Assembly: GCA_007674295.1 (NCBI GenBank) | Contig: CM017447.1 | Span: 62,001 to 126,000 of the forward strand | Source of the DNA: Antonospora locustae | Taxonomy: Eukaryota > Microsporidia | Reading direction: 5' to 3' | DNA length: 64,000 nt | Shown: positions 2,928 through 59,445 of the stretch, piece after piece | How the letters are laid out: every line of letters starts with the position of its first letter | Position numbering within the stretch: position 1 is the stretch's first letter | The notes under the pieces: generated by a model | The model's input: the letters and a program-made list of their open reading frames with translations, nothing else | The model's database searches: none | What the model was told of the DNA's origin: nothing | Position numbers and translations under genes: made by a program

Positions 2928-3128
2928 AATTAAATTTTTTAATTTAATGTGAAAACATGCGAAGACATTTTGCAAGCGGACCTAAGCGTGTGCGAGTACA
3001 AAGACGTCAGACTGTATGAATGAGCAGGTTGTGTGAATTCAAAACAGCGACTCTAAGGAAACCAGTCTACTATTTGATGCTATCTGAGTGACAAGTTATT
3101 TCTGTGCTTTGAATCAAGCACATGCAGC

Positions 3129-6100
3129 CTATATAAAAGAGAGCCATCCAATGTACATGTTTCCGAGGTTAGACTCGCTTGTAGCATCCTGTATAAGCTC
3201 GTCGGCTTTGTCCTGCACATCGCTTGTTTCAAGCTTATTCTTAAGTCCTTGTATGATCTGCTCGCCACTTAGTCTTTTGTTCCATTCAAATAGAGGGTCG
3301 TACAGAAAAGAAAGGAGGTTGGCTATTATCAAGTCGCGTCGTTCAAAAATAACCTTCAAAGTTGTCTCAAGTGTTTTTCTGTAGGGGCCCTCTGTTAAAA
3401 GCACTCCAAATGCATCAACAATGTTCTGTGTAAGTCTAAACGGAACTTTCTCAGGTAACTCAAAATTCTTGCCCCGCTCAAATAAACAGTTAAGGTCAAC
3501 ATGGACAGTGTCTCCTGTGACAACATCAAACATAATGTTCTCTCCGTGTCTGTCTCCCAGACCCATAAACCATCCTACACCGTTCATAACTGCATATGTC
3601 TGTATGTATCTTCTTCTTGCTCGAAACCATGCTCTTGGATCCAAAAACTCATCCTCAAACCACCTGTAGAACACGGGTGGATATGTTTTAACAATGTCCC
3701 TGTACTTTTCTGTGCCGATTTTTTTTTTCATTCTGAACTTCTGGACGGTCTCGGATATAGAAAGATTGTTTTCTCTGTAGTAGGATTCGCAGATTGATTT
3801 GAAGCTTTTCAGACCCGAAATCCATTCAATGAGCCCATTTTTATGTGTGATTGGAATCACGTTGTACCTTCGTATTTCCATGTATTCTTTGCATTCCGGC
3901 TCGTTCACAAATATGTTATTCAGAAGAAGTGCCAGATCCATAAACCGGTTATCTTTTCTCAGGTCATCATTTGGTTTACAGAGAAACATGTATGAGATAC
4001 CATTTTTTCCAATGAGTTCAATTCTCTTTGGAGATTGAAGACTGCTGAAAACCTGAATTTCGTCGCCCACTGCCTCGATAGTGGTGGAGTACAGCGAGTC
4101 TGGCATGGAGACCCTTGTTGGAAGAAGCTCCAGAAACTTTCTGAAGTGCTTTGAGAACGAAAGACAACTTGTTTTTGCAGTATATTGCGAAATCTCCACA
4201 AAAATGGCAGACACCTGCTTGAAACTTCTCAAGATAACTTTGCTATCAAAACTGATTTCACCAATAACCTTTTCAAGTCGTCTTGCAGTTTCCTGGTGCG
4301 TGGAGTTAACAAAAATCAGCGAATTCCAGAATGTCAGCAATGGAAAATCATTGAAAAGAATTTGAAGTATTCTGCTAATCACATCTACGACTTCATGTTT
4401 GCTGTGTGATATTTTTGGAATGATCTGGTTAAAAAAGGGCAAGAACGTTTCGCGGCTAGGCATTTTGCTAATAATGTCCTCTATTATCTTTCTTCCGTCT
4501 CTGTAGAACGACACCTTCTTCTTTGCACTGCCCTCCTCGCAAAACAAGTGGAATATTAGCGGAATCGTCTCATTGTTAAAGCGCCTTCCATACTGAATGC
4601 TGTTTTTGTACGACTCCATGGCCTTCAGTGCATCGTGCTTCTCAAAATACTTTCCCTGGTAGTAAAACAGCTTTTCCGAGTTTCCCACTCTTTTCAGTGT
4701 TTCATCAAAAAAGACCTTGGAATTTGACACTCGTGCCTGAAACACTAGTCCTTTCGTGTACAGTGGGTCGTCCTCGGGCAGAAGCGTCAGCAGTCTCTTT
4801 AGAGAGGTTTTTGCGTCAACTCGCCTATTCATGCTTACAAGCACCTTGGACTGCTCGTACAGGGCCCACCATTCTTTCTTTATTAGCATCTTTGTGATCT
4901 CAGTAATGGCCTGCTCTGTCTCGCCCTTTATTCGCAGTCTTTTAATTTTCAAGAGCTTCAGCTTGCGCTCAAAGTCAAACACTCCGCTGCAGTACCTCAT
5001 TTCCTTCAGAGTGTTGACTAGGTTTTCATATCTGGAAAATTCTATGTTTTTTGCAATCTTGAGTCTCTCCAAAACGAGGTCAAAACCGCAGCATTCCTTG
5101 ATGAGCTCAAGGTCCTTTATAAAGTGTAGGCTCTCAAGCTTTGTTTCCGCTTTCATTGAATCAGAACTCATGATGAAGGCTTTGTATCTCCTTGCAAATG
5201 CTCTGGACTCGTCTTCTGCGCCAGAGCTAAAGCCAAAAGCCCCTGAAGTTTTCACATGTTTTGACATCTCCTGCATATTTTGGCAATATGTATTATTCAG
5301 AATGTTGTATGTAGAACGGTTATGTAGCTCACCTGACTTGCATGCATATTCATTCCTGTCATTGCACTCCCATGTTTGCAGGCGATATCGGAGCTTTTTA
5401 CACGTCTCGAAAAACTTTCTTATCACTAGGTCATCATCACTATCTTCAGCACTCTTAGTAAGGACCTTTTTCATAGACTCAAAGTTCTTGTCTACAGGGT
5501 CCAAACAGCACTGTGCAAGGTGAAAATTCCTCTCCACACAGAATCCATAGAATAAGTTGACAGAATCCAATCTGTTGAATATAGTGTTAATGCCCAGAAT
5601 TGTGTCAGTATCTCCAATCGCATAGCTATTGTGCAGCATACTGTCCCAAAACTCTTTCTGATTTCGCCGCTTTCTAATGATTTTTTCTAGCAAGAAAATT
5701 GAGTAATAATGTTTTCCTATGGACAGAGACACACCTAAGGCACATGTGTTGGTGAGCAATTCGTTTTTTGTAAATGTCTGGGCTCTCAGAAAAAACTCGC
5801 TGATTTTCTGATCTGTTCCTGAATCGATGCATTTTGTTATCTCTTCCGCCTTGTCCTTGATTTCCCTAACAAGGTTGTGTTTGAGGAGAACATGTATTCC
5901 GCAAAGCACATAGAATTCCTTTGCATCTGTCCTAAGAAGAAGCCCGTACTGGAGCAGCTGGAAGAAGTCTGTGAGTCTGTATTTCTGCAAGAGATGCAAT
6001 ACATAGTTTAAAAGCCTCTCAACAAAAATTGCGTATTTGAGCCCTTTTTCGTAGATCTCAGTGTCCTTGTATTCAAAATTAAGTGGCAGAAAATAACGTG

Positions 6101-8633
6101 AGTTCCTGAACTGCGAAACAAGCTCCTGTGTGTAGCTGTCAAGTATGTCTATTTGTGGAATGTATCTCAGTGTTTCTTGTATAACAAAGAAGTGCACGTC
6201 CTGATTGTATGCATCAATTTTGAATAGATAGCTGTCGAGAAGAACCTTCGCAATTTCCATGGTTGTGACCTCCTGTAGCACATAGCATGCATTATAGAGC
6301 CTTCGCTGCTGAATTTCGACAGAGCCTATAAGGCAAATGGTTTCAACAAGATCTGCAGAGCTTGTCTTCTGTCCTACGGCATGGTCTAGAAATCGTTGTA
6401 CAAACACTTTCAGTTCTGGGTTCTGCTTAAACTCGGCTATGAAGTTCCTGACAAAGAGGCTGTCGCCAGTGCCGCTTTTCCTCGACTCTGCACTAAATCC
6501 ACTGCAGCCATTTTTACAGTCTTTCTCTACCACTGCACCAAAAGCCACCAACTTTGTGCCGTTCTGTACATTGAGCCTATTTTCACTGGTCTCCATTCCC
6601 ACTTCTCTGCTACTGTCCAGCAGGTCTTGTGTGAACAGGGCCTGCAGGATACGCCCGATCTTCTCTATCGCTATTTCTTGCCCATACAAGCCCCTGGAGT
6701 CCAGAAGCACACTTCCAATTCTTATGCACTTTCCAATGTCCAGCACTGTGCTCATGCCCTTTATGTTGCAAAGCTTTTCAATGCTCAGGTACGGGAAGAT
6801 CATGTGGGAATATCGACTCGCCGTCTTCGAATCAAGTTGGTCATAGAACCAATCCACAAATCCGAGCTGTCTTTCGTTTCTGTGCATGAAAAACTCGATG
6901 AACGGAAATATGTATGTGAAATTATGCATGAGGTTTGGCAGTAAAAGCTGCGTGATGAACTTCAAAATGTCCTCTGTTGTGCACAAGAGTAGCGATTCGC
7001 GCTCCATGTATATCTTGCGTACGTTGAAAAGGATAGGTGTCAGGTTCTTTTCAAAAAATGCAGGTACATTTCCAATGTATTGCTCTAGGTCCAAAATTTT
7101 TGTATAATCAAGCACCAGCAAATAGGATATTATTTTTGACCCAAACTCCGATATAACGTCAGTTACACAGTATCCAAATAAATCCTCTTCGAGCCTCTTG
7201 CCAGCCAATATTTGGCTTATTATGAAATATGGCAGATTGTACAGAATGTCCCGGTCTGAAAAGTTGAACAGACCCAACAGGTTCTTGCTTATAACTATTG
7301 GAAAGATAAACAACATGTTTGTATCAAAAAAGTCGGAGACATTGCAACCTAGAATGCATGCAAGTGTCTCAACCTCTAACTCAAAAGCCTCTTTGGACAA
7401 TTTTCTCTCCTTTAGTTCGTCAAAAAAGTGCTCAAGTATGATATGTGTGATTCTGTTGAACTTGACCTTATGTCTAAACACAAAATTCCTCAAGCTTAGG
7501 TTGATGAAGCTGTTTTCTTGGTGTGCTCTAAAAAGATTAAGAGCTATTATAAACACACCAAATGCTATCTTGTCTGTCATCTGTGCATATTCAGCAATCT
7601 CTAAAGCGAGAAACTTCAGGTACATCTTCTCGCTTTTATGAATAATCTTCATGGCATCTACTAATATGCATTCGCTATCCTCTTTCATTGGAAAGAGTGC
7701 AAGGAGGCTTAGGACTGCACGTCCTGGCTCGCTCCTCTGCATTGCTACACTCAGAATGTCTTTGAGATTTTTGGAATTGCAAAACAGGCTTTCGTGGCGC
7801 AGGTAATGCGTTAGTATGGACATGTCAGTAAAGTCCAAGTTTCTGCACACCAGACTGTCCAACATTTCATCAAAGTGGTGCTTCTGTATCTCAAAATATC
7901 TTCTTAGTTTCTTTATGTTTCTGAAGCAGACTCTACATGTGTCTTCCTCTGCATTCAGAAAGCATAAAAAGCGTGTCATGTATCTTTCGTGTCTAATGTT
8001 CTGCACAAGCAGCGGATCGACATGATCCATGTGCTTCTCCTTTACAGTGTTGAATTCAACAACAGTGTTTTCACCCAATATGTGGAGAAATATGTTTTTG
8101 TCTGGAAAGTCCCTGAGCTTTATAAAGCTTGCCACCTCGCTTGTTTTGTTTTTCAAAATCACCTGGAGATAGTGCTCAAGAAACAGCTTGTGGTACAAGG
8201 GATTTGATAGATCAACGTCAAATGGGACAAAGTCCTGAAAGTCACCTGTGCAGTTCTTGTATATGAAGAAGTTCAAAAAGTTCTTGCTGACCATGCCAAG
8301 ATTTTCAGTGTCCAGCTTCTTTAGTGTAACATCTTGAAAAAACCGGTATACACTATCAAATGTGGCAACTGTTATTGATATTCTCGTCAAAATGTCCACA
8401 TACTTTAACGTGTAGCTTTTCCTTCTAAAACTTATGTCCTCGCTTCTTTTTCGCATAATCAGATCCAGAACGCGGCCCAAGTCACGCTTGTTCTCACATC
8501 TACAAAGAGATTCCACTATCTCCTCTACTACATTTTTTGAATACACATTTGTGAGTGCAGCTTCATAAATCTCGTATATTGGCTCTGCTCTGATTTTGCG
8601 TATGTATATTTTTTTTCTGTGTTCTCTCTCCAT
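3129..8633 (-). CDS. MEC1: ATR/Mec1-type checkpoint kinase
   Basis: PI3-kinase-like protein kinase of the DNA-damage and replication-stress checkpoint. The 1834-residue product is a long alpha-solenoid with a C-terminal kinase: catalytic loop GLGDRHGEN at about residue 1691, metal-binding HVDLNCLF about 20 residues later, and PFRLTQNIVDAFG, all ATR-like rather than TOR or ATM. It ends in a FATC tail (NMYIGWLSFI). Yeast Mec1 has about 2370 residues and human ATR 2644, so the solenoid is shortened. Start ATG 8633 has GGGG directly upstream on the coding strand. It is the largest gene in the window; RAD51, EXO1 and MCM8, which act in responses it controls, lie elsewhere in the window. Confidence 0.93.
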   Translation of the reverse strand: MEREHRKKIYIRKIRAEPIYEIYEAALTNVYSKNVVEEIVESLCRCENKRDLGRVLDLIMRKRSEDISFRRKSYTLKYVDILTRISITVATFDSVYRFFQDVTLKKLDTENLGMVSKNFLNFFIYKNCTGDFQDFVPFDVDLSNPLYHKLFLEHYLQVILKNKTSEVASFIKLRDFPDKNIFLHILGENTVVEFNTVKEKHMDHVDPLLVQNIRHERYMTRFLCFLNAEEDTCRVCFRNIKKLRRYFEIQKHHFDEMLDSLVCRNLDFTDMSILTHYLRHESLFCNSKNLKDILSVAMQRSEPGRAVLSLLALFPMKEDSECILVDAMKIIHKSEKMYLKFLALEIAEYAQMTDKIAFGVFIIALNLFRAHQENSFINLSLRNFVFRHKVKFNRITHIILEHFFDELKERKLSKEAFELEVETLACILGCNVSDFFDTNMLFIFPIVISKNLLGLFNFSDRDILYNLPYFIISQILAGKRLEEDLFGYCVTDVISEFGSKIISYLLVLDYTKILDLEQYIGNVPAFFEKNLTPILFNVRKIYMERESLLLCTTEDILKFITQLLLPNLMHNFTYIFPFIEFFMHRNERQLGFVDWFYDQLDSKTASRYSHMIFPYLSIEKLCNIKGMSTVLDIGKCIRIGSVLLDSRGLYGQEIAIEKIGRILQALFTQDLLDSSREVGMETSENRLNVQNGTKLVAFGAVVEKDCKNGCSGFSAESRKSGTGDSLFVRNFIAEFKQNPELKVFVQRFLDHAVGQKTSSADLVETICLIGSVEIQQRRLYNACYVLQEVTTMEIAKVLLDSYLFKIDAYNQDVHFFVIQETLRYIPQIDILDSYTQELVSQFRNSRYFLPLNFEYKDTEIYEKGLKYAIFVERLLNYVLHLLQKYRLTDFFQLLQYGLLLRTDAKEFYVLCGIHVLLKHNLVREIKDKAEEITKCIDSGTDQKISEFFLRAQTFTKNELLTNTCALGVSLSIGKHYYSIFLLEKIIRKRRNQKEFWDSMLHNSYAIGDTDTILGINTIFNRLDSVNLFYGFCVERNFHLAQCCLDPVDKNFESMKKVLTKSAEDSDDDLVIRKFFETCKKLRYRLQTWECNDRNEYACKSGELHNRSTYNILNNTYCQNMQEMSKHVKTSGAFGFSSGAEDESRAFARRYKAFIMSSDSMKAETKLESLHFIKDLELIKECCGFDLVLERLKIAKNIEFSRYENLVNTLKEMRYCSGVFDFERKLKLLKIKRLRIKGETEQAITEITKMLIKKEWWALYEQSKVLVSMNRRVDAKTSLKRLLTLLPEDDPLYTKGLVFQARVSNSKVFFDETLKRVGNSEKLFYYQGKYFEKHDALKAMESYKNSIQYGRRFNNETIPLIFHLFCEEGSAKKKVSFYRDGRKIIEDIISKMPSRETFLPFFNQIIPKISHSKHEVVDVISRILQILFNDFPLLTFWNSLIFVNSTHQETARRLEKVIGEISFDSKVILRSFKQVSAIFVEISQYTAKTSCLSFSKHFRKFLELLPTRVSMPDSLYSTTIEAVGDEIQVFSSLQSPKRIELIGKNGISYMFLCKPNDDLRKDNRFMDLALLLNNIFVNEPECKEYMEIRRYNVIPITHKNGLIEWISGLKSFKSICESYYRENNLSISETVQKFRMKKKIGTEKYRDIVKTYPPVFYRWFEDEFLDPRAWFRARRRYIQTYAVMNGVGWFMGLGDRHGENIMFDVVTGDTVHVDLNCLFERGKNFELPEKVPFRLTQNIVDAFGVLLTEGPYRKTLETTLKVIFERRDLIIANLLSFLYDPLFEWNKRLSGEQIIQGLKNKLETSDVQDKADELIQDATSESNLGNMYIGWLSFI

Positions 8634-9323
8634 CCCCGCACAAAACTTTCGTGAGCACTTTTATATCACAGCCGCAAAAAGCAGCTGCCACCTTCTGCAA
8701 GTTACATGACTGGAACAACCCTGCATGGTGCTTTTGTCTTACTATTACGTGAGTGTAGACTAATAGTGAGATATATGTACTAAAGGTGCTTTATTGTCGC
8801 ATGCTTGAGTTTCTAGTTTATCTACAAGATCTGTTATTTCTACTGCAGTACATGTTGTTGCACTTGTCTACAACGCATGCCAGTAAAAGGTTTTATTATC
8901 TTTTTGTTTGAGAGCTGGAGAGCCCTGCTAGGTCGTATTACCACTAGCATATAACGGCCAGGGTGGTTTCTGTACAATAGTGAAAAGTTGTGACTTTGCA
9001 AATAAAGCTTTTACTCAAAAAGCCTGCTTGAAGCCCGTAGATTACATGAATTCAGACAAAACTTCTCAGTATTTGGTGCACAGTACTTACAAGGATGTGC
9101 AACTATCCAAGAGATAACAAAATGGATGGATACACATGAAGCACACAATCAGCTTTGTAGTTGTTGTGATATCAAAAATTGCTTGGGTGTAAATGAAAAT
9201 GTCAGTGACGATTTGTGAAATTACCTGCTACTAAATGAATTACACTGCAATACCACAGTGCTATAACTTGAAATATTCTCCAGGAGCAAAGCAATCTTAT
9301 GCGAATTTGGCACCAACCCCTAG
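8634..9323. other. 690-bp intergenic region without a gene call
   Basis: Divergent gap between the ATR gene and the R-SNARE gene. I see no ATG-started frame of interest and no tRNA. A local inverted repeat (GCTAG 8929-8933 with CTAGC 8944-8948, enclosed by CCCT/AGGG) and two U5-loop-like heptads (CTTTTACT near 9008; its complement near 8882) were examined and not called. It is long for this genome, so an unrecognised RNA gene is possible. Confidence 0.4.
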
Positions 9324-43660: not shown

Positions 43661-44344
43661 GTCATCTCGTCTACGCTTCTACGCCTGTGCTTTCTCTTCT
43701 TGTACCGCTTGTGAGTCGCTCTTTCTGCGTGCTTCAGCAGCTAACTGTATCTGCATTGCGTATATCTGTTGAAGGGCCAAGCTATCGCGTCTCAAGATCA
43801 GTGTATGACTCAAATATTTTTATTTACAGCCATAGATTTTACGAACGGAGAGCCCTCGTAGAAGTTTCCTGACATGATTCTGTAGCAAGTTGCTGGTACT
43901 ACAAAATGTCGATTTTGCTTTGCATGTGCACAGGAAACACAGCTTCCATGCAAGCAAACAGTACCTGCAGAAAGCCTCTGCGTTATGCTAGTTCGACATG
44001 TCACGCTTGCTCTCTCCTCGATCCATTTCAAATTGATCTTTTCAAACCACAAAAGTCTGGAAAAGCCACAGAAGATGATGAGCTGTAACAGTTATCCCTG
44101 TCTGAACATGAGGATACAATACTCTGATTCTGCATCTTGTAATTGCAGTTTCTGCAATACGTTGCGCTACTGCACAACATTTTGCAGCCAGGTTCTTTAT
44201 ATGTAAAATCTTGGTCATTGTAAAGCACATCACATGTGCTTCGCTATATAAGCGCTATGTACATGAAAAGATTCATGATAAAAATACAGCATAGCTATTT
44301 ACTTATAACTACTTTTCACATGAAAAGCGAAGTGGGCTTTTCTG
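43661..44344. other. 684-bp intergenic region between convergent genes
   Basis: Between CCR4 and EXO1 stop codons, unusually long for a 3'-3' gap. A 7-bp hairpin ATTGCAG-TTT-CTGCAAT lies at 44142-44158. A 60-codon frame (43906-44088) has an ATG but no start signal and a composition unlike its neighbours. A U2-like string (43782-43806) lacks the conserved loop and branch-site box. Nothing is called. Confidence 0.4.
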
Positions 44345-55235: not shown

Positions 55236-56348
55236 ATGGAGATTGCGCATACGGTCTTGCTGAATGTTATGTGCTTTATTACAGCAAAAAGACTTTTGAT
55301 TAGAGCACCGGACGCTGTGATTGGATTTGGAGATGACTTGACTGCGGACGGAAAAGCGCGCATTGTGATTACAATAGGAACACAACATCTATCGCTTGTG
55401 CTAGCGGACAGAAGCATTGCATATGACCGAGAACTGCGACTGAGAAGAGCGTTCTTTGGCCATGGGTGCATGCTAGACGGAAGGTACGTAGGTGTCCTTC
55501 ATATAGACAATGGCGTTCTCGGAACACTGCGACTGGGCGGAAAGAACTATCTAATACGTAGCGGCAGTTCAGAAGTAAGACACATGAATGACTTAGAGAT
55601 TCTAGAGAAAGGCAACAAACACACTATCATAGTCAGAATTCTTCTGATAAACGATGTGAAAAGAACTGCTAGGCTTGGAAGCAGTCTCATTGACGAGACT
55701 CTGAACATTTTCAGAAGCGCAGGCAGAATATTTGAGAGGGAGGATTGGGGTGGATACAAAATCAGCTTGAAGGTCTCAAACATCTTTAACATCGAAAAAG
55801 GACCAGTTGCACTGAAAATATACAGGGATAAGCATATTGGCCAGAAAGTACTAAGCGACAGTGCTGAGGAAGAGTATGAGAGTAGTCATGAAAATGCACT
55901 TGGTATAATGCCAGGTGCCAGTCAAGATGCATCTGGGCTCAGGCGTCGCTACAAGAAGGAGCTTGCGAGCATGGCAGACATGCTTGAAAGGATTTTGGCA
56001 AATTCAAAAAGCGAGGACGAGTTTCATGAGAAGCATGATGTTGTGTTTCTGCTCTCAGACGAAACAAACAAAGATATCGAGGGTATTTCGTACGACAGGT
56101 GTGCATTTGGACGGAATATATGTCTTGGAATCGTCTTTACTGATAGCTGCAACGACAGTCATTTCCATGGAAGAGTCCTTGCACATGAGCTGGTGCACAC
56201 ACTTGGTGGACCCCATGACACTGAAGACGGGTTTCTGATGGAAGCGATAAGTAACAAACACACAAAGCAGATGGACGTGCAAGTGAGCAGAGCCACAAAA
56301 CTCGCGGTGACGCAATTTCTAAGGTCTCGGGGCAGAGTCTCCGCCTGA
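55236..56348 (+). CDS. Secreted reprolysin-like (M12B, ADAM-type) metalloprotease
   Basis: Zinc protease of the metzincin clan. The 370 residues start with a likely signal peptide (EIAHTVLLNVMCFITA). A pro-domain-like region (about 20-120) is followed by the catalytic domain with LAHELVHTLGGPHD (zinc motif HE-x2-H-x2-G-x2-HD at 317-328) and FLMEA as the Met-turn. No disintegrin, Cys-rich or transmembrane part follows, so it is a minimal secreted enzyme. A free Cys in the pro region could act as a switch but was not placed. ATG 55236, no CCC. Exported enzymes may act on the host or the spore wall; this is inference. Confidence 0.85.
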   Translation: MEIAHTVLLNVMCFITAKRLLIRAPDAVIGFGDDLTADGKARIVITIGTQHLSLVLADRSIAYDRELRLRRAFFGHGCMLDGRYVGVLHIDNGVLGTLRLGGKNYLIRSGSSEVRHMNDLEILEKGNKHTIIVRILLINDVKRTARLGSSLIDETLNIFRSAGRIFEREDWGGYKISLKVSNIFNIEKGPVALKIYRDKHIGQKVLSDSAEEEYESSHENALGIMPGASQDASGLRRRYKKELASMADMLERILANSKSEDEFHEKHDVVFLLSDETNKDIEGISYDRCAFGRNICLGIVFTDSCNDSHFHGRVLAHELVHTLGGPHDTEDGFLMEAISNKHTKQMDVQVSRATKLAVTQFLRSRGRVSA

Positions 56349-56373: not shown

Positions 56374-56883
56374 ATGGAAATCAGAAAAATGGAAATATCA
56401 GACATAGAGCCCGTTAAGAAAGTTAACGAGGAAAATCTCCCTGAGAACTACACCTACGACTTCTACTGCTACTATCTGCTATTCTATCCAGGGCTGTGCT
56501 ATGTTGCGGAGAAAAATGCAAAAATCGTTGGGTACGTTCTTTCCAAAATGTGCTCTATAGAGGAAGCCACAACTGTGCACATAACCTCTATCTGCGTCAG
56601 CAAGGAGTTCAGAAACCGTGGAATTGGCACGGCTCTCATGCAATCTGTGATCAACTGCGTAAGAGAAAGGTACAAAGAAGACGATGACATGCCAGAAACG
56701 TGCAAGCTTTCTCTGTATGTGCGAGTATCTAATAATGAGGCCATAGACTTCTACGAAAATAAATTCGGGTTCAGAAAGTTGTACATGAAGGAGAATTACT
56801 ATGGCGACGGCGAAAGTGCATATGAGATGGGTCTGTTTTTACATAGGCATTGTATGAGTGACAACTACAGTGCGTCCAGATGA
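56374..56883 (+). CDS. ARD1: NAA10/ARD1-like N-terminal acetyltransferase
   Basis: GNAT-fold catalytic subunit of NatA-type protein N-terminal acetyltransferases. The 169 residues read IRKMEISDIEPVKKVNEENLPENYTYDFYCYYLLFYPGLCYVAE (about 3-46), the acetyl-CoA loop RNRGIGTALM (Q/R-x-x-G-x-G/A), LYVRVSNNEAIDFYENKFGF and YYGDGESAYEMGLFL, all matching NAA10; NAA50 is a possible alternative. ATG 56374; no CCC. An NAA15 partner is not seen in the window. The RNase MRP RNA gene starts about 130 bp downstream. Confidence 0.88.
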   Translation: MEIRKMEISDIEPVKKVNEENLPENYTYDFYCYYLLFYPGLCYVAEKNAKIVGYVLSKMCSIEEATTVHITSICVSKEFRNRGIGTALMQSVINCVRERYKEDDDMPETCKLSLYVRVSNNEAIDFYENKFGFRKLYMKENYYGDGESAYEMGLFLHRHCMSDNYSASR

Positions 56884-57009
56884 CATTATATGTTAGTGCA
56901 TGCAGGTGTGCTTTTTTACACTACAATTCAACAGGTGACGTCTGTCCTGCATATGCAAAGAAACATCCACAAGGAAACCACAGAGCAAATGTTGCTGCGA
57001 GCAGCATTC

Positions 57010-57232
57010 TTGCTGTGCAAGGCGGGAAGTTCTTGGGCTTCCAGATATATTTTGAATGCAAAATCACACCCCAAGGATCTCGAAGAACGGCGTCGGAGTA
57101 CATTGTACTCTGGGGAAAGTCCTCGGACACAAGCAGAGATGCATCCAGAAATGGACCTCTAGTCGTTGCGATAGTTATGCCGTTAGGTATTGATATACCG
57201 ATCTCAATGAGGCTTACTCTCGAGAGCCTTTT
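57010..57232 (+). ncRNA. RNase MRP RNA
   Basis: RNA subunit of RNase MRP, which cuts pre-rRNA in ITS1. Matches to the known human RMRP RNA, in order: AAGGC-N-CTTGGGC (57019-57038), CCCC pairing with GGGG (57069-57072, 57112-57115), GGGGAAAGTCCTCGGAC (57112-57128), GCAGAGATGC (57133-57142), CCTCTAGT (57156-57163) and GGCTTACTCTC (57211-57221), the CR-V counterpart. Outer pairing AAGGC/GCCTT closes the molecule and a T6 run ends it. A hairpin GAGTAC-ATT-GTACTC precedes the core. Two open frames cross the region but have no start signal. Ends are approximate. Confidence 0.87.
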
Positions 57233-57234
57233 TT
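57229..57234 (+). terminator. Pol III terminator of RNase MRP RNA
   Basis: Six T residues after the closing GCC, consistent with Pol III transcription of the MRP RNA. Confidence 0.7.
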
Positions 57235-57424
57235 ACTATAATTATTTGTATTTTCTCAGTACTCCACCAATACTTCTACAACAAACTTCAGAGACTAAAA
57301 AGCTTTTTGACAGTGCAGTGCTGCTTTTATGGCAGCCTGCAAAAGTAAGTGGAACATGCTGTTCTTTCTACATCCATGCATGACCCAGAAACAGAAAGGT
57401 CAGCAGTCCATGAAAATACAGGAG

Positions 57425-57429
57425 CCCCC
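57425..57429 (+). promoter_or_regulatory. CCCCC start signal of CTR9 gene
   Basis: C5 directly before ATG 57430; chooses it over ATG 57376, and the product then starts at the first conserved CTR9 residue block. Confidence 0.6.
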
Positions 57430-59445
57430 ATGATTTCGATAGCCTTTGGCGACGACGAGGTATTTGAGCTTGACACAAAGAATCTGCCAAGAGATACTGC
57501 CTTCGGCGCATTATTGGAGCTGCTCGATGATTACGACGTGTCTCCAAAGCAGCAGCGCACCATTGCTATGGAATACTATAAGCAAGGTCTTGAACGAGAA
57601 TTTGTGCAACTACTGGAGAACTTGATCAAGAACTTGGTGTTCAACGAAGACGAACAGCACAGAGCTGAGGCGCTACTGAATTCATATTGGATAAAAAAAG
57701 GTAGGAGACCGCAAATAGGGGAAAGTCCAGATGTGAACAATGTGCTTAAGGGTATTGTTTCGCTGAGAGACGGCGACATTAAAAAAGCAGCATATTTCTT
57801 TCATATGTGCAAGTTCACCTTGGGACTTGAAATTCTTGACTTTGTGGAAAACAGGAAGTTTGTGTTCAGAAATGAGACTCTGGGCCTTCTACACGAGTAT
57901 CGAAAAGGCAAAAGTAGCGACTTCAGAACAGGCAATAAAACAAACAAGTACGTGAGATACAGGATAGACAGTGAGTATAGAAAAGAGGTTAACATAACAG
58001 GACAAGACATTGTGGACTGGCTTGCATCGCTTGACTGTCCTGAGCCGCAGAGTGCTACCTCTGCGAGTGTGAAAGACAAAAAGGCATGTTTTTTCAGCAG
58101 CACAGACGTTCTATTGGAGCTTGCAGACAGGTACATAGGCATTAACGAGAAGATTGCGCTGAGCATTCTTGAAAAAGTTCCTGATAACGATGACAAGTTC
58201 TTTCTGAAGGGTAAAGTAGAGCATCTAAAGAAGAACTACGAGAAAGCTGCAGAGTACTACAAAAAGTCAAGGCTAGTGTTGGCAAGATATGCAAGATGCA
58301 GGATTGAGCAGGACATACTAATAGACTTTGACTTTCGAACAAGAGAAAGCGACAACTTTCAAGCATATTTGTGCAAAAAGATGAATGCAAACATTAAGTA
58401 CGAATGTGATGTGCATGATGTCTTTCAGGCAAAGGACAACCCATCGGTGTACTCGTACAGAAAACTAGCTCGCAATCCTTTTGTTTCCGCATGTGGCGTC
58501 ATGAACAACCTTGTATTTTATATGTGGCTTGAGACGGAGCGCTATCAGATAATGTCCAAGGAGTTCAAGCCACTGCAGGAGCTTTTTGCCGAGCACACAA
58601 AAGACAGCCAGATACCAGACATGCCGGGCATTTATGATGCTAGTGCTGCAATTAGAAGCATACGATCTCTGAGGGAAAAGAAGCTGGACTTTCTGAACTT
58701 CAGAGCATCTATGGCAGACCAAAAAGAAAGGATGCTGAGTATTCTGGAGATGGCTTTGAAGACGACACCCTGTGAGTACGAAGATACTATAAAATACAAT
58801 ATAGATGTGTTGTGTAACAGAGAGTTGTACAATGCCCTTGTGCAGAACAACGTAGAAAAGATTAAGGAAACACGCGACCCAAGCCTTCTGGGGTATTTGC
58901 ATCTATTTAACAAGTCCTTTGACACTGCAAGAAAGATCCTGAAAGATGACTGTCTGGCGCTTGGGTGCATCTATATAGAGTACTTTCTCAAGGAAAAGAG
59001 CGAAAGACTGCTTGACAGGGCTGCTGGGTTCTTTGAGAAATCCAGCTCCATATATGCTGTGAATGGCATGGCGCTTGTACTGATATTTAAGGGAATGCAT
59101 AGCGAGGCCAAGATGGTCCTCAAGAAGCTTGTACAGGAACTTCCTCTAGCCAACATAAACCTTGGAAATCTGTATGTACTAGAGGGCCAGTACACAAAGG
59201 CCGTTGTGTGCTTCAGAAAGGTACCGCTCTCGGAATACACGTTTGGTGTTCTCAAGGCCCTGTCTGCGATAGAGGGAGACAGAAAGCTCATGGGGGATCT
59301 CTGGTGCATTCGGCAAGACGAAGAGATAGAGGCAGAGCTAAGGAAAGCAGAGATCAAAGCAGAAGCTGCAGCAGACACTGTGGCACAGGTAGAGGATGCC
59401 AAAAACAAAGATAATGTGCAGACAAGCAAGAAGAGGAAAACATAG
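57430..59445 (+). CDS. CTR9: CTR9, PAF1 complex TPR scaffold
   Basis: TPR scaffold of the PAF1 complex, which supports Pol II elongation and histone marks. The 671 residues begin with FGDDEVFELDTKNLPRDTAFGALLELLDDYDV and MEYYKQGLEREFVQLLENLI, matching the CTR9 N-terminus. TPR-like units follow (for example KGKVEHLKKNYEKAAEYYKKSRL at about 260-282 and INLGNLYVLEGQYTKAVVCFRKV near 578-600). The tail is Ala/Lys-rich and ends in SKKRKT. ATG 57430 has CCCCC directly before it; the frame is open to a GTG at 57349 with another ATG at 57376. Yeast Ctr9 has 1077 residues. Confidence 0.88.
   Translation: MISIAFGDDEVFELDTKNLPRDTAFGALLELLDDYDVSPKQQRTIAMEYYKQGLEREFVQLLENLIKNLVFNEDEQHRAEALLNSYWIKKGRRPQIGESPDVNNVLKGIVSLRDGDIKKAAYFFHMCKFTLGLEILDFVENRKFVFRNETLGLLHEYRKGKSSDFRTGNKTNKYVRYRIDSEYRKEVNITGQDIVDWLASLDCPEPQSATSASVKDKKACFFSSTDVLLELADRYIGINEKIALSILEKVPDNDDKFFLKGKVEHLKKNYEKAAEYYKKSRLVLARYARCRIEQDILIDFDFRTRESDNFQAYLCKKMNANIKYECDVHDVFQAKDNPSVYSYRKLARNPFVSACGVMNNLVFYMWLETERYQIMSKEFKPLQELFAEHTKDSQIPDMPGIYDASAAIRSIRSLREKKLDFLNFRASMADQKERMLSILEMALKTTPCEYEDTIKYNIDVLCNRELYNALVQNNVEKIKETRDPSLLGYLHLFNKSFDTARKILKDDCLALGCIYIEYFLKEKSERLLDRAAGFFEKSSSIYAVNGMALVLIFKGMHSEAKMVLKKLVQELPLANINLGNLYVLEGQYTKAVVCFRKVPLSEYTFGVLKALSAIEGDRKLMGDLWCIRQDEEIEAELRKAEIKAEAAADTVAQVEDAKNKDNVQTSKKRKT

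Follow-up and report, generated by a model that had tools for sequence, protein, structure and literature searches.

RNase MRP RNA is the catalytic subunit of an enzyme that cleaves pre-rRNA in the first internal transcribed spacer (ITS1) and so has a role in making ribosomes. Shrunken forms of this RNA are already known in microsporidia. Two papers record the absence of P3b and P6 from microsporidian MRP RNAs (PMC1796607) and name Nosema locustae and Encephalitozoon cuniculi as having the shortest MRPs (PMC3228867). The former also gives GARA as a major variant of an MRP-specific P8 motif, and for CR-IV the consensus AnAGUnA, placed 0-3 nt before the P2 3' strand. In yeast RNase MRP, as described from cryo-EM (PMC7351766), the GARA element takes the form of a GNRA tetraloop that contacts Pop1, P3 is bound by Pop6/Pop7, and Snm1 and Rmp1 belong to the enzyme. 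For Giardia, PMC3228867 describes a short MRP RNA, of 189 nt by its assemblage A coordinates; neither this RNA nor the P RNA has an internal loop in its P3.

We analysed a window of 64,000 nt (the whole stretch presented above, 42.8% GC), in which an RNase MRP RNA gene had been proposed. An Rfam scan of the window supports this assignment: RF00030 matches the plus strand at 57073-57229 with 77.4 bits (gathering score 50 bits, E 1e-19), and the match spans the whole model, positions 1-266. Across the genome (3,170,203 bases or 3.17 Mb, on 17 contigs) this locus is the sole match found, with 25 of the 27 first-look candidates scored; the same model gave a signal in one of 14 named control genomes, below the cut-off. 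All motifs named by the original prediction are present, among them GGGGAAAGTCCTCGGAC at 57112, GCAGAGATGC at 57133, CCTCTAGT at 57156 and GGCTTACTCTC at 57211. Its expectation of a covariance hit above the gathering score was borne out in score and not in extent, the hit covering 57073-57229 of the proposed 57010-57232. Judged by its sequence, the MRP RNA gene at this locus is real. We put at roughly 97% the joint reading of a single detected MRP RNA gene with a reduced fold, presumed transcription by RNA polymerase III, presumed assembly with Pop proteins and cleavage in ITS1, and open frames that run across it by chance.

Like the microsporidian MRP RNAs of Nosema locustae and Encephalitozoon cuniculi, with which it was compared by description, the RNA is very short and has no P3b. 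The GC content of the window fits that published for Antonospora (Nosema) locustae (41.6% and 42.0%), and if the genome is of this species, the RNA is likely the same as the one already described for it. At ~162 nt it is shorter than the Giardia RNA, with which it shares the reduced length and the P3 without internal loop; unlike the Giardia RNA, it belongs to a host of a distant lineage. With yeast RNase MRP it has in common the core and the GARA element capping P8. The yeast enzyme has Snm1, Rmp1 and a P3-bound Pop6/Pop7, whereas here P3 is plain and the Rpp20, Alba and Rmp1 families are unmatched.

The elements of the RNA and its surroundings are collected in Table 1. P3 has neither an internal loop nor P3b, and most P3 positions of the model stay empty in the Rfam alignment. 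CR-I and CR-V may form the P4 pseudoknot, by sequence, through AAGUC (57117-57121) and GGCUU (57211-57215), with only five contiguous pairs. Besides P8, the S-domain retains one hairpin only (57144-57155), which may be P9 or P10. The 72 model positions that follow this hairpin are represented in the alignment by 1 nt; because such a block is reduced to a single base, the P9 or the P10/P12 arm appears to be gone. Imposing the model helices gives a predicted fold energy of -50.8 kcal/mol; the free optimum (MFE) reaches -52.0 and pairs the S-domain in another arrangement than the model does.

Table 1. Features at and around the RNase MRP RNA locus (window positions).
Feature	Position	Strand	Evidence or remark
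RNase MRP RNA gene, including terminal T run	57073..57234	+	RF00030 match and T run; ~162 nt, probable ends
TATA-like TATATTTT	57046..57053	+	27 nt upstream of probable 5' end; putative function
P1 5' strand, AAGGAUCUCG	57073..57082	+	9/10 pairs with 57221-57230
P2 5' strand, AACGGC	57086..57091	+	6/6 pairs with 57179-57184; Rfam alignment
P3, plain hairpin, 7 bp, 3-nt loop	57095..57111	+	7/7 pairs, one G-U
CR-I, GGGGAAAGUCCUCGGAC	57112..57128	+	Rfam alignment, pairing check
P8 hairpin, GCA-GAGA-UGC, GARA tetraloop	57133..57142	+	3/3 pairs
Hairpin UCCA-GAAA-UGGA	57144..57155	+	4/4 pairs; P9, or remnant of P10/P12
CR-IV, AUAGUUA	57171..57177	+	one nt ahead of P2 3' strand (57179)
P2 3' strand, GCCGUU	57179..57184	+	pairs with 57086-57091
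P19 hairpin, GGUAU-UGAU-AUACC	57186..57199	+	5/5 pairs
CR-V region, GAGGCUUACUC	57209..57219	+	Rfam alignment, pairing check
P1 3' strand, CGAGAGCCUU	57221..57230	+	9/10 pairs with 57073-57082
T6, likely RNA polymerase III terminator	57229..57234	+	sequence; putative function
167-codon open frame, judged non-gene	56880..57383	+	no relatives, codon score, no Pfam
90-codon open frame	56890..57162		codon score -0.14 bits/codon

Several features of MRP RNAs are found here: CR-I and CR-V with possible P4 pairs, a P8 looped by GARA, the placement of CR-IV, and the presence of a separate RNase P RNA elsewhere in the genome. The two-helix P3 with an internal loop, a nearly universal feature of MRP RNA, is not among them. 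A plain P3 does not exclude membership, since the absence of P3b is on record for microsporidia in PMC1796607. The fold of the RNA would be built on a catalytic core of P1, P2 and P4; P3 would be shortened to a plain hairpin, and the S-domain, by sequence and model, would be reduced to the GARA-looped P8 and one further hairpin.

The limits of the gene differ from those first proposed, in which the RNA began at 57010, was closed by an AAGGC/GCCTT pair and measured ~220 nt. The covariance match begins at 57073 with model position 1; GCCTT is found at 57226, and the match does not extend to AAGGC at 57019, P1 being formed instead by the strands given in the table. From the model start at 57073 and the P1 pairing there, it follows that an RNA of ~162 nt, rather than ~220 nt, is to be expected. 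Folding of 57073-57235 gave a z-score of -2.36, with 4 of 200 shuffles as good, which is modest support from prediction; for 57010-57235 the z-score was -1.02 and 34 of 200 shuffles did as well. In these models the 63 extra upstream bases (57010-57072) weaken the fold. We therefore discarded the 5' end at 57010, together with its closing pair, and adopted 57073 on the covariance start, the fold z-scores and the P1 pairing. The locus is therefore a known kind of gene that had been correctly identified, with its start and length now corrected.

The T6 run of the original prediction is in place at the 3' end. Within 56700-57600, the plus strand has no B box (GGTTCRANYCC, up to two mismatches); a B-box-like site with two mismatches occurs on the minus strand at 57586. 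By eye, the word TATATTTT recurs upstream of tRNA-Phe and not of RNase P RNA, tRNA-Leu or the snoRNA. As only tRNA-Phe among these four RNA genes shares the word, a promoter role for it is a guess. Transcription would probably be carried out by RNA polymerase III, from the TATA-like element to the T6 stretch.

Since the matched 157 nt fall far short of the 266 positions of the model, one may ask whether the locus is a degraded or a second, non-functional copy of an MRP RNA gene. We regard this as very improbable: no other match was found in the genome to which it could be second, its core helices and motifs are intact, and microsporidian MRP RNAs are, in PMC3228867, the ones named as shortest known. 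The RNA would then be the single-copy (as detected) RNase MRP RNA, the catalytic subunit of the enzyme. With the CR-I pattern, a search of IMG/VR returned eight stretches, none of which had an Rfam match at the gathering score.

The 167- and 90-codon frames pointed out earlier do exist across the gene, and the longer one invites the reading that 56880-57383 is a real protein gene, its RNA likeness being accidental or overlapping. It runs for 167 codons from an ATG without a stop, a predicted copy of it is present in the protein collection, and the part of it that lies inside the RNA scores positively in codon usage. Codon scores were referred to 34 frames of the window, hand-picked from 51 of at least 150 aa, and to an off-frame control of 73 open wrong-frame stretches. 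Each left out in turn, the 34 long frames score 0.12 to 0.29 bits/codon; the 5-95% range of the control is -0.36 to -0.01. The 167-codon frame, at -0.07 bits/codon, falls within the off-frame range and under each of the 34, and its codon usage is non-coding-like. Its 54-codon part inside the RNA, at +0.07, is likewise under all 34 but above the off-frame 95th percentile (-0.01), so that this piece alone would not settle the coding question.

Searches for relatives agree with the score of the whole frame. Conservation of the 56880 frame as a protein, named beforehand as evidence against the RNA gene, was not found: of the 69 candidates that a search of 5.77 billion proteins yielded, none but the frame's own copy matches at E <= 1, although both neighbouring genes have relatives at 80-83%. 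Pfam gives nothing at E <= 0.1 for the 167-aa product and, for the 90-aa product, one match far under its cut-off (13.3 against 26 bits). A protein gene would also have to accommodate an RNA match of E 1e-19. We rejected it on the lone self-match, the low codon score and the lack of a Pfam match, and hold it to be extremely unlikely; beside the MRP RNA gene, both frames would be open by chance.

The upstream neighbour, at 56374, is a 169-aa acetyltransferase, ARD1/Naa10-like by the names of its matches. For this protein 514 of 519 candidates lie at E <= 0.001, and the closest non-self relatives, in the best 120 listed, have 83% and 82% identity. The best named one among the matches listed, at 46%, is from Hamiltosporidium tvaerminnensis, a microsporidian. 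The downstream neighbour is a TPR protein, presumably Ctr9-like, with non-self relatives at 80%, 81% and 71% (scored over the 7,995 candidates with the most words in common); an IMG/VR search with it found no relatives. One relative probably keeps both flanking genes on one contig, with nothing recognisable as the 56880 frame in its predicted proteins. The Ctr9-like gene probably starts at its second ATG, 57430, because its product would have 689 aa if counted from 57376, 18 more than the 671 aa of two relatives. Further upstream, a 370-aa frame (55236-56348, plus strand) carries a zinc-site-like HELVHTLGGPHD and weakly matches M12B reprolysin-type metalloproteases (PF01421, 21.2 bits, cut-off 20.8).

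That the locus encodes RNase P RNA rather than MRP RNA is a reading with virtually no chance left, for all the common core and the shared Rfam clan of the two RNAs, as the locus is called RF00030 and has the MRP-specific GARA loop, and as a distinct 233-nt RNase P RNA, with a T5 run behind it, exists elsewhere in the genome (RF00009, 81.5 bits; contig C13, L002:1501-1733, minus strand). The P3 of this RNase P RNA, read by eye from sequence and alignment, also looks like a plain hairpin, AAGGAG/CTCCTT around CCTG.

Eight protein families of RNase P/MRP were sought. Five were found by genome search and all five were confirmed by a Pfam back-scan of the open frames: Pop1, p29/Pop4, Pop5/Rpp14, p30/Rpp1 and Rpr2/Rpp21/Snm1, with one copy each of Pop5/Rpp14 and Rpr2/Rpp21/Snm1. 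The Pop1 frame has 387 aa and a POPLD domain; in the PDB it weakly matches human and yeast chains of 1024 and 875 aa (E 0.016 and 0.8, respectively), and its best Pop1_N stretch scores 26.5 bits alone and 46.2 with the adjoining stretch. Snm1 was sought through the shared family PF04032 and by comparing the Rpr2-like protein with the PDB. The nearest solved structures are archaeal RNase P component 4, human p21 and yeast Rpr2, and no Snm1 chain is among the four PDB matches listed at E <= 1.

No member of the Rpp20/Pop7, Alba and Rmp1 families was found in the genome at E <= 10. The Alba search rose above its cut-off in two archaeal controls; those for Rpp20 and Rmp1 had no control at the cut-off and no eukaryotic positive control. 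The absence of the three families is likely, and only likely, because they are small and fast-evolving and Pop1_N itself reached only the low score given above. According to PMC3919561, microsporidia have kept no more than about half of the ancestral set of ribosome-biogenesis factors. Going by the families found, the partners of the MRP RNA would be Pop1, Pop4, Pop5 and Rpp1, perhaps joined by the single Rpr2-like protein.

The rRNA genes bear on both the host and the substrate. Two SSU rRNA copies score 1050.9 and 1047.8 bits with the Rfam microsporidian SSU model; this search alone is unspecific, as it rose above the cut-off in 9 of 14 prokaryotic controls. Both copies are called microsporidian when all families compete, and a 67-base SSU 3' piece at the edge of the rDNA stretch is called eukaryotic SSU. 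The host is a microsporidian, on the evidence of these genes and of the ARD1-like neighbour. One SSU match runs as far as L011:4416. The archaeal LSU model, of which the 5.8S-like part is a component, matches from its first position at L011:4675. The 258 nt between the two matches indicate that ITS1 is present, and there is no sign of ITS2. According to PMC1796607, some microsporidia are without ITS2 and the ITS1 of E. cuniculi is called short. As an ITS1 of ~258 nt is present, a substrate region for the enzyme exists in this genome. RNase MRP would cleave the pre-rRNA there, upstream of the fused 5.8S/LSU.

In the ITS1 (L011:4417-4674), GTGGAGT-type repeats come first and CACCACAC/GCACAGCAC-type repeats after them, partly complementary to each other by eye. 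On the same stretch (L011, contig C6:186000-195999) the two SSU rRNA genes point towards each other (3015-4416, plus strand, and 7689-9089, minus strand), with partial LSU matches between them (4806-5889, plus, and 6255-7434, minus); the arrangement looks like a palindrome of truncated units joined by the assembly. Within the window, 44067-44134 (plus strand) holds a candidate C/D-box snoRNA (Rfam snoR38, 48.5 bits, cut-off 45) with box C GATGATGA and a guide-like stretch ACAGTTATCCCTGTCTGA. The LSU target word expected for it has no match in the assembly, which says little because the LSU matches in the rDNA stretch extend over its 5' part only.

P3, a plain hairpin in the MRP RNA, reads as one in the RNase P RNA too, and in yeast P3 is the site bound by Pop6/Pop7 (PMC7351766). 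Because both RNAs are simplified and the Rpp20/Pop7 and Alba families went undetected, a co-loss is suggested, in which the simplification of P3 went together with the loss of the proteins that bind it. Among the papers listed by a literature search, none named a loss of Pop6/Pop7 in microsporidia, a weak negative given that most subscription papers lay outside its coverage. We can only tentatively extend this to the whole holoenzymes, which might consist of a shortened Pop1 on an archaeal-like core (Pop4, Pop5, Rpp1 and a single Rpr2-like protein) and rank among the smallest natural MRP enzymes.

An MRP RNA as such is expected in a microsporidian. For annotation, the value of the locus is that the RNA gene of a core enzyme lies beneath open frames that gene finders could call. 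For biology, the genome offers a tidy test case of how an RNA domain, P3, and the proteins that bind it may be reduced together, in a cell that still has both ITS1 and an MRP RNA while its rDNA is without sign of ITS2.
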